Source of the DNA: Thiomicrorhabdus sp.
GTDB lineage: Bacteria > Pseudomonadota > Gammaproteobacteria > Thiomicrospirales > Thiomicrospiraceae
Assembly (NCBI GenBank): GCA_015487495.1
Contig: WFPP01000049.1
Location: 1-34,793, forward strand
Direction of reading: 5' to 3'
DNA length: 34,793 nt
The position numbers were made by a program, and so were the translations under genes. Below the pieces are notes generated by a model. The model was given only the letters and a program-made list of their open reading frames with translations, searched no databases and was not told where the DNA came from. This document shows positions 8,576 through 34,793 of this stretch, in pieces. Numbering within the stretch: the first letter of the stretch is position 1; each line of letters opens with the position of its first letter.

Positions 8576-8984
8576 TGCGGCCCCTTTTGTTTAAGAAAAA
8601 TGGATGTTTTTTAGGGTTAGAGGAGTAAGTAACATGCAATTTGATTCTAAAAATCATACAATAACAGCAAATTTGTAGCGACTCAGAAGACTCCTTTTTA
8701 AAGGAGGAAGCGGAGTCGTTAGCCCCAGTTTTTTTTAAAAGAGACCTTTGTTCGATATTCAGCGTAAAATGAAATACTCGATGCCCGCACAAGGTAAGTT
8801 TTGGTAAATAGAGAAAGAAATAGACCTCATTTTTACGTGTGATGATTTCATTCAAAGATTTCTTTTCATTCATCTTAGCACGACGCACGCAAGAATTCAT
8901 TCTGTGTGCGTTGCTTATTAAAAATTCTGTTGTATCAGGAATCGTTACGGTTCTTTCGGCAGGAGGTTGGAGACGTTTCATTAC
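8576..8984. other. 409-base intergenic region upstream of sucC
   Basis: I see no convincing gene here. The region holds a compound hairpin (8679-8718) and a smaller ACGCAC/GTGCGT inverted repeat (8883-8888 and 8906-8911) closer to sucC. AGGAGG at 8961-8966 and GGAGA at 8969-8973 lie just before sucC. It must contain promoters for the PP0621-type gene and for sucCD-nadE. The leader of the sucC transcript could be long. Confidence 0.5.
8679..8718. repeat. Compound hairpin upstream of sucC
   Basis: The outer arms CGACTC and GAGTCG enclose a second perfect stem, CTCCTTT/AAAGGAG, with a 2-base loop. A T-rich stretch is missing on the plus side (TTAGCCCC follows), so it is not a typical terminator for rightward transcription. 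It could be a regulatory structure in the sucC leader. Confidence 0.55.
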
Positions 8985-10148
8985 ATGAATCTACATGAGT
9001 ACCAGTCTAAGGCGCTTTTTTCGGAATACGGAATTGGCGTACCTAAAGGTTATTTAGTTTCTCACTTAAGTGAGCTTGAGACCGCCCTTAATGCAATTAA
9101 CAGTGATGGTTGGGTTGTAAAAGCTCAAATTCATGCTGGCGCACGAGGTAAAGCAGGGGGGGTAAAACTTGTTTCGACACTTGAAGAAGCGCACCAGATT
9201 ACCAGCGAATTATTGGGCAGCTCTTTGGCAACGATTCAAACCGCAGGTAAGGCATTGCCTGTTAATAGCGTATTAGTTGAAGGAACGTTGGCGATTGAAG
9301 ATGAGCTGTATTTAAGCTTGGTGGTGGATCGTGTTACCCGAACTCATACGTTTGTGATTTCTGCATCAGGGGGGATGGATATTGAAGAGGTTGCACAAAC
9401 CTCACCTGAAAAAATACTTTCTGTTCATATTGATGCCACCGTGGGTGTGATGCCTTATCAGTGTCGAGAAGTGGGGTTTGCATTAGGGCTAAAAGGAGAG
9501 GCGTTTAAGCAAATTGGTTTTTTAATGAAGCAGTTATATCAACTGGCGCTGGATAAAGACGTTTCTCAAGTAGAAATTAACCCATTGGTGCGTACCGCTG
9601 ACAATCAACTGGTTGCTTTGGATGCCAAGGTAAATATTGATTCAAATGCCCTGTATCGCCAACCTGAGTTGGTTGATATGCGGGATGATTCTCAGGAAGA
9701 TGCGCGTGAAGCAAAGGCCTCTCAGCACAATTTAAACTACATTGCTTTGGATGGTGATATTGGTTGCATGGTTAATGGTGCAGGATTAGCGATGGCCACA
9801 ATGGATCTTATTAAATTAAATGGTGGCGAGCCTGCTAATTTTTTGGATGTGGGCGGAGGTGCGACACCTGATCGTGTAGCAGAAGCGTTTAAATTAATTT
9901 TGTCTTCATCTGATGTCAAGTCAATTTTAGTCAATATTTTTGGGGGCATTGTGCGTTGTGATTTGATTGCAGAAGGCATTATTAAAGCGGTTCAAGAGGT
10001 TGGCTTGACCATTCCTGTTGTGGTTCGGCTGGAAGGAACCAACGTTGAATCAGGGCGAGAAAAGCTTGCTCAAAGTGGCTTAAGAATTATAACCGCAGAT
10101 GGATTGGCAGATGCCGCCGCGAAAGTGGTTGAAGTAGCAGGAAAGTAA
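8985..10148 (+). CDS. sucC: Succinate-CoA ligase, beta subunit
   Basis: The 387-residue protein starts MNLHEYQSKALFSEYGI, exactly as family members do. ATG 8985 was therefore chosen over upstream in-frame TTG 8967, with GGAGA 11 bases before it. An ATP-grasp domain follows (WVVKAQIHAGARGKAGGVKL). The C-terminal CoA-ligase domain includes LDVGGGATPDRVAEAF and NIFGGIVRCDLIAEGI. With SucD it interconverts succinyl-CoA and succinate with nucleotide phosphorylation. No sucAB genes for 2-oxoglutarate dehydrogenase accompany it. Malate-CoA ligase is a related alternative that sequence inspection alone cannot exclude. Confidence 0.93.
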   Translation: MNLHEYQSKALFSEYGIGVPKGYLVSHLSELETALNAINSDGWVVKAQIHAGARGKAGGVKLVSTLEEAHQITSELLGSSLATIQTAGKALPVNSVLVEGTLAIEDELYLSLVVDRVTRTHTFVISASGGMDIEEVAQTSPEKILSVHIDATVGVMPYQCREVGFALGLKGEAFKQIGFLMKQLYQLALDKDVSQVEINPLVRTADNQLVALDAKVNIDSNALYRQPELVDMRDDSQEDAREAKASQHNLNYIALDGDIGCMVNGAGLAMATMDLIKLNGGEPANFLDVGGGATPDRVAEAFKLILSSSDVKSILVNIFGGIVRCDLIAEGIIKAVQEVGLTIPVVVRLEGTNVESGREKLAQSGLRIITADGLADAAAKVVEVAGK

Positions 10149-32548: not shown

Positions 32549-33451
32549 ATGATGACAATCAAACGAATTGGACACCGCTACAGCGATGCAAAAACTGGTG
32601 CGACTTTAGATGTGTGGTTTCCGCGCTCAAATAAAGAAATTGCTCGTAACTGCCTAGCTTTACAAGCAGGTTTGATTAAAAGCGATTTTGTTACCGTTGA
32701 AATCGCTTCGGTTGACGATGCACCAACCTCAGCCGAAGACGCTTACCTTCGTCTTCACCTATTGTCAGAATGTGCCGTTAAGCCCAATGAAATTAATTTA
32801 GACGGCGTTTTTGGCTTACTCAATAACGTGGCTTGGACAACCGCAGGGCCCGTTTTACCAGCCGAAGTTGAAAACTTGCGTGAAGCGATAGCCAATGAAG
32901 TACACCAATTTAATGTCACCTGCATTGATAAGTTCCCACGCATGACCGACTACGTAATTCCAGAAGGCGTTCGTATCGGCAATGCCGATCGTGTCAGACT
33001 CGGCGCACATTTAGCCCCCGGCACAACCATTATGCACGAAGGCTTTGTCAACTTTAACGCTGGAACACTAGGCAACTCAATGGTCGAAGGGCGTATCAGT
33101 GCCAGTGTGGTCGTGGGCGAAAACTCCGATATCGGTGGCGGAGCCTCCATTATGGGAACTCTTTCAGGTGGTGGAAAACAAGTCATCTCAATGGGCAAAA
33201 GAAATCTATTGGGCGCCAATGCAGGACTAGGCATCTCATTAGGCGATGATTGCATTGTCGAATCAGGTCTCTATTTAACAGCAGGAACAAAAGTAAAAAT
33301 GCCCGATGGCTCAATCGTCTCCGCTCGTGAACTATCAGGCGCATCTAAATTACTCTTCAGACGACACAGCCAAACCGGAGCAGTTGAAGCCATCGTAACA
33401 GACGGCTCTTTATGGGGCGGCCTAAACACCACATTGCATAATAACGACTAA
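32549..33451 (+). CDS. dapD: Tetrahydrodipicolinate N-succinyltransferase, long (Pseudomonas/actinobacterial) type
   Basis: The 300-residue protein has a variable N-terminal domain and then a left-handed beta-helix of hexapeptide repeats from about residue 130: VIPEGVRIGNADRVRLGAHL, TIMHEGFVNFNAGTLGNSMV, then IGGGASIMGTLSGG and LLGANAGLGISLGDDC. This is the DapD branch seen in Pseudomonas and Corynebacterium, not the E. coli branch. It makes N-succinyl-2-amino-6-ketopimelate on the lysine/diaminopimelate path. Two adjacent ATGs (32549 and 32552) could start it. Confidence 0.94.
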   Translation: MMTIKRIGHRYSDAKTGATLDVWFPRSNKEIARNCLALQAGLIKSDFVTVEIASVDDAPTSAEDAYLRLHLLSECAVKPNEINLDGVFGLLNNVAWTTAGPVLPAEVENLREAIANEVHQFNVTCIDKFPRMTDYVIPEGVRIGNADRVRLGAHLAPGTTIMHEGFVNFNAGTLGNSMVEGRISASVVVGENSDIGGGASIMGTLSGGGKQVISMGKRNLLGANAGLGISLGDDCIVESGLYLTAGTKVKMPDGSIVSARELSGASKLLFRRHSQTGAVEAIVTDGSLWGGLNTTLHNND

Positions 33452-33592: not shown

Positions 33593-34579
33593 TTACTCCA
33601 GTAATGTATCAAGTGGACTCACCACTCCTTGTCCTCCCTGTTTTAATACATGCGTATAAATCATCGTCGTTTGTAAATCTGTATGGCCTAACAGAGCCTG
33701 AATGGTTCGAATATCCGTTCCCGTTTGCAAAAGATGTGTTGCAAATGAATGACGAAAAGTATGTGCGCTGACTTTCTTGGTGATGCCACACTGCTTAACT
33801 GCGCGTTTAATCGCCTTGTTTACCACCGACTGATCAACATGATGCCTTCTTTTCATGTCACTTCTCGGATCGGGAGCCAAATGTTTACTCGGAAATACAT
33901 ACTGCCAGCCAATCGCCTTATCTGCGTTAGGGTACTTTTTAGCCAAGGCATAAGGCAAATAAACCGAACCAAAGCCCATCTCTAAATCCTTCTGATGAAC
34001 CAAAGCAACCCTTTCCAACTGTAATTGTAAAGGCGCAACTAAATGATGAGCCAATGGCGTAACTCGATCTTTCTTGCCCTTACCATCTCGTACCGTAATT
34101 TGCTTAAATCCAAAATCAATATCCTGAACACGCAATCGTACTGCCTCTGAAATACGCAAACCACTTGCATATAACAGTTTTATAACTAATCCAGCCGTTC
34201 CCTCCACCAACGTTAAAACTTCAGCAACCTCCTCCTTGGTTAATACCACAGGAATTCGAGGCTCTTTACGAGAACGGCTTGCACTTACGCTCTTTAAAGG
34301 CGCATTCAATACCTTAGTGTATAAAAAAACCAACGCATTAAGCGCCTGATTTTGAGTAGAAGGTGCGACCTTTTTATGAACCGCCAAATGCGTCAAGAAT
34401 TGCTCAACTCTTGACTCCGAATCCACCAACAGAGTTTCTCTGCTTTGAAGCGAATGAAACTTAATAAATCGTTTAACCCAATCACAATACGTTAATTCCG
34501 TTTTATAAGCATAGCCCTGTCTGCGTAAAATATGACGCATCTCCTCTAATAAAGAAATTTTTTGGATAGAATGAGGCAT
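33593..34579 (-). CDS. intI: Integron integrase IntI (tyrosine recombinase)
   Basis: The 328-residue protein has an N-terminal SAM-like DNA-binding domain. The catalytic domain carries the full tyrosine-recombinase set: Arg142 (ASGLRISEAV), Lys (DGKGKKDR), His273 and Arg276 (HTFRHSFATHLL), His299 (LLGHTD) and Tyr308 (MIYTHV). Residues about 205-230 (VYLPYALAKKYPNADK, IGWQYVFPS) form the extra patch unique to IntI, needed for folded single-stranded attC sites. This separates it from XerC/D and phage integrases. It is transcribed away from the array and appears intact. The cassettes would lie to the right. Confidence 0.95.
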   Translation of the reverse strand: MPHSIQKISLLEEMRHILRRQGYAYKTELTYCDWVKRFIKFHSLQSRETLLVDSESRVEQFLTHLAVHKKVAPSTQNQALNALVFLYTKVLNAPLKSVSASRSRKEPRIPVVLTKEEVAEVLTLVEGTAGLVIKLLYASGLRISEAVRLRVQDIDFGFKQITVRDGKGKKDRVTPLAHHLVAPLQLQLERVALVHQKDLEMGFGSVYLPYALAKKYPNADKAIGWQYVFPSKHLAPDPRSDMKRRHHVDQSVVNKAIKRAVKQCGITKKVSAHTFRHSFATHLLQTGTDIRTIQALLGHTDLQTTMIYTHVLKQGGQGVVSPLDTLLE

Positions 34580-34744
34580 AATAAAGCATCTCTTGAATGT
34601 GAAAGAATGAAAAACGTCTTAATGACAGACTACTCATATAATACCAATATCAGGTTAAAACATCAGGTTTTTTAAAACCCTGTCAAATTGACAGGGAATA
34701 GGGTATATTAACGGATGGAGAGGCAAAAATGCCTTATACTATAT
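34580..34744. other. Putative attI region and intI promoter region
   Basis: This 165-base stretch between intI and the first core site is where attI lies in all known integrons. It contains a direct repeat ATCAGGTT (34649-34656 and 34662-34669), an inverted repeat GGTTTT/AAAACC (34666-34679), a 19-base palindrome (34678-34696) and TATACT (34735-34740). Direct repeats are known IntI-binding sites in attI1, so the ATCAGGTT pair is a candidate. No attI sequence is conserved enough to confirm it by eye. Confidence 0.6.
34678..34696. promoter_or_regulatory. 19-base perfect palindrome upstream of intI (operator candidate)
   Basis: CCCTGTCAAATTGACAGGG has 9-base arms around a central A. It contains CTGT and ACAG separated by 7 bases, where the standard LexA operator has 8. 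Many integron integrases are SOS-controlled. Either this is a variant LexA site, or another dimeric repressor binds it. Confidence 0.5.
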
Positions 34745-34793
34745 GTTAGAAGCGCCCGCAAGCGGCCGCTTCTAACGGGGTGGCGATCAAGGA
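34745..34793 (+). repeat. Start of cassette array: core site plus GC-rich palindrome (array runs off window)
   Basis: GTTAGAAGC at 34745 fits the recombination core (GTTRRR) expected at the attI/cassette joint. It is followed at once by its inverse, GCTTCTAAC (ending 34776), so 34745-34776 is a 32-base palindrome with 15-base arms, one mismatch and a loop of AA. The second half resembles the R'' box opening an attC, which would continue into GGGGTGGCG past the edge. The GC-rich content contrasts with the AT-rich surroundings. Confidence 0.6.

Follow-up and report, generated by a model that had tools for sequence, protein, structure and literature searches.

An intact integron integrase and dispersed attI sites in Thiomicrorhabdus, and the possibility that one integrase serves several cassette platforms

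In genomes of Thiomicrorhabdus we observed an intact integron integrase gene (intI), a common attI, cassettes or attC sites behind many attI that have no adjoining intI, some intI remnants, and breakpoints at GTTA. The window, i.e., the whole stretch of DNA analyzed here, is an entire contig (C49:1-34793; 34,793 bp) of a draft Thiomicrorhabdus genome in 132 contigs. Comparing it with related genomes, we propose, at a probability of roughly 0.6, that several attI platforms exist, many of them left behind by loss of intI, and that one integrase serves them in trans. On this reading, the window ends in a chromosomal integron, in which IntI and attI are followed by the beginning of a gene-less first cassette; the genome has a single IntI and further attI with cassette DNA at dispersed loci; this IntI would insert, or would once have inserted, circular cassettes at remote attI by attI x attC recombination at G|TTA; and many of the intI-less sites would descend from complete integrons that lost intI and retained attI. 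Recombination in trans, the retention of platforms because they are used, and an array following position 34793 would all belong to this reading. A wider version would be a polycentric integron, both in Thiomicrorhabdus and in related genera: a single integrase tending attI platforms across the chromosome, intI moving from one platform to another between species, and the gene-less hairpin cassette living as an integrase-dependent, MITE-like passenger that takes up residence on the platforms. This version is tentative and, in our judgment, somewhat doubtful.

The intI product matches the TIGR02249 integron integrase profile over its full length (434.3 bits, cut-off of 265, profile positions 1-315 of 315), and Pfam recognizes a Phage_integrase domain and a SAM-like N-terminal domain. 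Its top match among solved structures is Vibrio cholerae IntI4 (2a3v, E 1.3e-89); this alignment runs through the IntI-specific insert (query about 195-250), where it has a gap of one residue, and places R142, K167, H273, R276, H299, and Y308, all at motif positions, opposite 2a3v residues 135, 160, 267, 270, 293, and 302, which we take to be catalytic. A sequence-only reading of this contig had described an intact IntI with all catalytic residues and its diagnostic additional domain, transcribed away from a candidate attI. These results bear it out, as does the recurrence of the attI core upstream of intI in relatives described below; that finding is correct, and ordinary in itself.

Three PF00589 genes are present in the window genome, with a single IntI match at E 1e-40. 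Among named genomes, the nearest IntI is that of a Thiomicrorhabdus MAG (WFQP01000074; 81% identity), followed by those of two further MAGs (80%); identities to T. marina, T. arctica, T. chilensis, and T. heinhorstiae are 72-77%. Outside the genus, IntI is 76% identical to that of Allopseudospirillum japonicum and 75% identical to that of Hydrogenovibrio sp. SC-1, whose genus we take to be family kin of Thiomicrorhabdus. The intI genes of G026 (L123) and G014 (L124) each contain one in-frame stop.

The neighboring gene, convergent with intI, is presumably dapD-like. At the corresponding locus of the sister genome G023, the place of intI is occupied by a conserved module and an attI, and the G023 intI lies on a different contig. 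Of 30 genomes searched up to 1.5 kb from the dapD-like gene, only G023 and the window genome (G000) yielded an attI. No common stretch of at least 300 bp was found in the far flanks of intI among G000, G023, G013, G028, G014, G012, and G011 (7.7-33 kb compared at E 1e-20 in one orientation). The conserved module (TATATAAATACTGTTTGCCTCCTGTTATACTCATTTTTTATTATT) and its relatives occur upstream of intI-less attI in G000, G001, and G023, at the usual place of intI.

Comparison identifies the segment adjoining intI as its predicted attI (Table 1). The 27-bp attI core of the genus is GGCAAnAnTGCCTTATACTAAATGTTA, from which the window copy differs by one mismatch. When up to 5 substitutions are tolerated, 13 of 27 related loci (L037-L063) have this core upstream of intI; some of the loci are short of upstream DNA, and 19 of the 27 were inspected directly. 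The crossover would fall within G|TTA, between G 34745 and T 34746, because the homology of orthologous sites stops at GTTA. A consensus scan for the cassette promoter Pc returned two promoter-like sites (shuffles, 0.8; sd, 0.9), and promoter and terminator scans were at most slightly above shuffles. At gathering thresholds, Rfam gave no match on the window or on loci L023, L024, and L025.

Table 1. Coordinates of the features discussed; positions without a locus prefix are those of the window
Feature	Position	Strand	Basis or remark
Neighboring gene, 300 aa, convergent with intI	32549-33451	+	ORF list
intI, intact integron integrase, 328 aa	33593-34579	-	ORF, profile, and alignment to 2a3v
Predicted attI region, about 105 bp to crossover	34640-34748	+	comparative
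Predicted attI core GGCAAAAATGCCTTATACTATATGTTA	34722-34748	+	1 mismatch versus genus core
Start of gene-less mini-cassette, 49 bp, truncated by contig edge	34745-34793	+	49/49 identical to C58 and C7
First palindrome of mini-cassette	arms 34745-34759 and 34762-34776	.	15 nt, 93% complementary
GGGGTGGCGAT, left arm of outer attC stem	34777-34787	+	right arm beyond contig, visible on C7
Conserved module (TATATAAATACTGTTTGCCTCCTGTTATACTCATTTTTTATTATT type)	L023:10612-10960; L024:172-517; L303 end; L242 about 2480-2648; L146		

The attI runs directly into the start of a mini-cassette, within which the contig ends. The full copy on contig C7 of the same genome measures 158 bp (L023 10960-11117), has no ORF of at least 60 aa, and comprises two palindromes and an attC with outer arms TAACGGGGTGGCGAT and ATCGCCACCCCGTTA; the next gene begins 31 bp beyond it. 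The sequence-only reading had expected a cassette array just outside the window. Such an array is predicted and supported by the cassette start at the contig edge and by attC-bearing cassettes at the same position in relatives, while the content beyond 34793 is unseen because the contig breaks within a repeated cassette and allows no certain contig join. The further suggestion that the DNA to the right of 34793 is the most likely place for new functions needs tempering: the first cassette is gene-less, and this is not the sole place to look because intI-less attI on other contigs hold cassettes too.

Taken as single-stranded DNA, the bottom strand of the mini-cassette folds at -62.4 kcal/mol (shuffle mean, -27.7; z, -11.6), and the fold contains an additional side hairpin and the second palindrome. 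Twelve copies from 7 genomes were aligned, of which one lacks the first palindrome and another the right end: the first palindrome pairs in 94% of cells, 5 of its 15 pairs show changes on both sides, and shifting the partner by 1-3 columns reduces whole-structure pairing from 93.6% to 32-48%. No shuffle (0/500) matched the observed values for paired cells or for the covariation score; 44/500 matched that for double-change pairs, and 173/500 that for further pair types. Any cassette integrated at attI should have a left end matching its own R'' box; integration at attI alone does not account for pairing beyond about 8 bp. The mini-cassette recurs in at least 7 genomes of the genus, and it lies directly at attI in 10 of the 42 attI sites found in the genus (one copy shortened).

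Elsewhere in the window genome, the last 154 bases of the window match C58:101-256 (79%), C7:10959-11008, and C127:2602-2651. An attI without intI is present on C58 and C127 and, with part of it deleted, on C7. The C7 copy has lost about 20 bp of the core; in the C127 copy, the core differs at 3 positions and the mini-cassette is shortened. At its end, C116 carries a related module and bases that in G001:C82 run into attI; C116 thus seems to break at a fourth intI-less attI. No intI remnant was found beside the attI of C58 or C127. On C7, the gene directly upstream of attI in the ORF list is one that we take to be purD; it is the sole purD match of the genome, and attI, the cassette, and the next gene follow it on one continuous stretch of the contig. 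A search within 1.5 kb of purD with a 7-mismatch pattern found only G019 (7 mismatches) among 29 loci, the C7 site being missed because its core is partly deleted.

One attC is present on C7, and C58 and C127 hold one each, partial or whole. The attC covariance model R1 (see below) found one site in the window genome, on C53 (150 of 433 candidates scored); the remaining arrays of this genome are of other attC types or absent from the draft. The C53 site (C53:3685-3782, L301:1501-1598; E 0.008) is a lone attC-like site followed by an acetyltransferase-like ORF, inside an operon that is presumably for sugar modification of the pseudaminic-acid type.

Across the genus, 20 of 32 Thiomicrorhabdus genomes contain the core with at most 3 mismatches, at 42 sites in all, and order-wide it occurs at 55 sites in 28 of 62 genomes, with no hits of the reversed control pattern in either set; the intI, attC, and flank analyses cover the 42 genus sites, and the 13 order sites outside the genus were counted only. 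Seventeen of the 42 sites adjoin intI or a remnant of it (11 intact or broken genes and 6 short remnants), and at the other 25 neither was found within 1.4-6 kb upstream. Where the first gene is clear, it usually starts 13-57 nt past GTTA and ends at an attC. The attI 19-mer had no exact match in viral contigs and the C7 stretch none in plasmids, so that no phage or plasmid carrier was seen.

The attC sites behind these attI were located with R1, a covariance model built from 23 of the sites; two versions of a simple attC scanner were too insensitive and were replaced by it. R1 gave 58 hits (E <=0.01, loci with mapped attI), every one of them downstream of attI and on its strand, distributed over 26 of the 42 sites; up to 23 of the 58 hits had gone into building the model, which leaves about 35 as independent. 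At least one hit was found at 16 of the 25 intI-free sites (two or more at 7, one at 9, none at 9), with four at G021:C5, three at G027, and two each at G021:C2, G022:138, G022:1064, G024:984, and G030:2179. Eight of the 42 sites have less than 1 kb of downstream sequence; an R1 hit is absent at 8 of the 34 sites with at least 1 kb, and 4 of these 8 have the mini-cassette attC, which is of a different type. The search selected for attI, and these arrays are therefore those headed by attI only.

Decay has contributed to this distribution, and the most serious alternative takes it as the whole explanation: the intI-less attI would be plain fossils of several complete integrons whose arrays were filled in cis before intI was lost, without any action in trans. 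Remnants of intI persist at 6 of the 31 sites where no intI was called, and therefore decay explains part of the pattern. At one locus, moreover, intI is broken but long in G015, deleted in G022, and absent from G030; the C7 core is partly deleted; and no IntI was present at E 1e-40 in 7 of the 20 genomes that carry attI, so that their platforms are probably frozen now. We nevertheless consider fossils alone unlikely, since at one orthologous locus the flanks align up to GTTA, no remnant is present, and the cassettes differ since the split, and since identical cassettes stand next to diverged attI in both G000 and G023. Given the broken and deleted intI genes, the genomes without IntI, and an exact GTTA that is altered at 5 of the 42 sites, the likely history is one of several integrons or platforms, with intI lost at most of them and the rest still used where IntI remains.

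The orthologous locus is an intI-free attI shared by three species (G030:2179, G022:1064, and G016:1921), in none of which an intI remnant was found. Its flanks are 80-85% identical up to +4 (GTTA) and are followed by different DNA; in the G016 pairs, the flank alignment has one break of 107-160 bp about 1 kb upstream. Common DNA resumes at +4974 (G030), +7780 (G022), and +2468 (G016), the one exception in between being a 363-bp patch of 71% identity between G030 and G022. Among five first-cassette proteins compared, the best match had an E of 0.02 over 49 residues, an unconvincing likeness. At G021:C5 and G005:962, the flanks are common outward from about -338/-201 and from +2676/+2674, and this homology fails to reach attI.

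The second line of evidence for service in trans comes from cassettes that are more alike than the attI beside them. Between C49 and C58, the mini-cassette is identical at 49/49 positions and the adjacent 105 bp at 70% (74% without gap columns; p 1e-5). In G023, the cassettes of C74 and C142 are identical at 109/109 positions and their attI at 63% (71% without gap columns; p 6e-11), these p values being guides only because alignment columns are not independent. Two cassette copies in G014 are 84-95% alike, compared with 61-73% for attI. The C58/C7 pair (cassette, 149/149) is weaker evidence because the DNA upstream of the core is itself 92% alike over 347 bp outside the C7 gap. Gene conversion, or an assembly artifact at the repeat, might instead have produced identical mini-cassettes without repeated insertion; C49 and C58 both break within the repeat, and the assembly is a draft. 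We find this improbable as a general account, in view of the similar pattern in G023, the unbroken C7 sequence that links the sole purD match, attI, cassette, and next gene, and the orthologous locus of G030, G022, and G016, which it leaves unaffected; gene conversion could explain part of the identical cassettes.

Off-target, attG-type insertion at chance attI-resembling sites is highly implausible: IntI is able to use secondary sites (PMC2426708 and PMC12444791), but attG sites are short and unrelated, whereas many sites here share the 27-bp core and more upstream similarity of a long common attI, and the control gave 0 in 32 and 62 genomes. The attG and MITE readings of the attI sites were dropped as unsupported.

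Ten cassette ORFs were scanned for function: two exceeded the Pfam cut-off, three were weak, and five had no match at 0.01. The C7 cassette gene (L023:11149-11721) encodes a 190-aa protein of the EcoRV family (156 of 244 profile positions, 266 bits), called REase_II by PADLOC; this EcoRV-like type II restriction enzyme is perhaps shortened. Its position behind an intI-less attI agrees with the expectation, made from the sequence alone, of defense genes in cassettes. The first cassette at G022:1064 encodes an AbiTii-like protein (PADLOC E 4.5e-6; under the Pfam cut-off), and the G030:241 cassette protein is SnoaL-like. The 274-aa ORF behind the C127 attI (L025:2792-3616) matched nothing in Pfam at 0.01 or in PADLOC at 0.001. 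After the EcoRV-like gene, the end of C7 (L023:11756-11820) holds the start of another gene, presumably IS66-like.

In the standard picture, an integron has one integrase, one attI, and one array. CALINs are clusters of two or more attC with no integron integrase gene nearby; they usually have no attI at their head, a feature that is not part of their formal definition. The system described here resembles CALINs in having cassette arrays remote from intI; its arrays differ in that they start at attI, and this attI is of the type found beside intI. With the sedentary chromosomal integrons of Vibrio and Xanthomonas it shares a chromosomal intI, an adjoining attI, and similar attC (genus-type consensus), and it differs from them in having attI away from intI within the same genome and unshared far flanks of intI. 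For Xanthomonas, PMC12444791 places nearly all intI near ilvD, reports conserved CALIN loci, and describes CALINs as mobilizable in trans; CALIN origins listed in PMC8618304 are off-target insertion, intI loss, and rearrangement. Hydrogenovibrio crunogenus SP-41 carries three CALINs and one complete integron, according to PMC10295459. CALINs and intI loss are thus known already, and the distribution of the attI sites is the interesting part.

ORF-less cassettes are likewise known already (PMC8618304 and PMC12444791), and the mini-cassette differs from them in its genus-wide recurrence, its position at attI, and its extra side hairpin and second palindrome. The Delta-attI-type cassettes of mobile integrons are similar in having attI away from its usual spot beside intI; as described in PMC12901181, attI parts lie within an array cassette, whereas in Thiomicrorhabdus a complete attI stands at the head of a chromosomal locus of its own. 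A literature search that covered few subscription papers yielded none dealing with both Thiomicrorhabdus and integrons and, in the portions of text available, no description of several attI platforms per genome.

If one integrase does stock several attI platforms, several cassettes could hold the first position simultaneously, and loss of intI at one locus would cost little. Part of the CALINs reported elsewhere may then be unrecognized platforms, because standard software misses attI outside class 1, as stated in PMC9024848.

Three loci add further observations. The G009 genome encodes an IntI of another lineage, only 51% identical (L131, G009:C1:1131388-1132335), together with three attI of the type studied here. 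In a Bathymodiolus heckerae symbiont (L044 about 8930-9116), attI is followed by a gene-less palindromic cassette that, judged by eye, is similar in layout and unrelated in sequence. In a Psychromonas MAG (L046:1-24), the contig, like the window, breaks within a palindrome at attI that resembles the mini-cassette.
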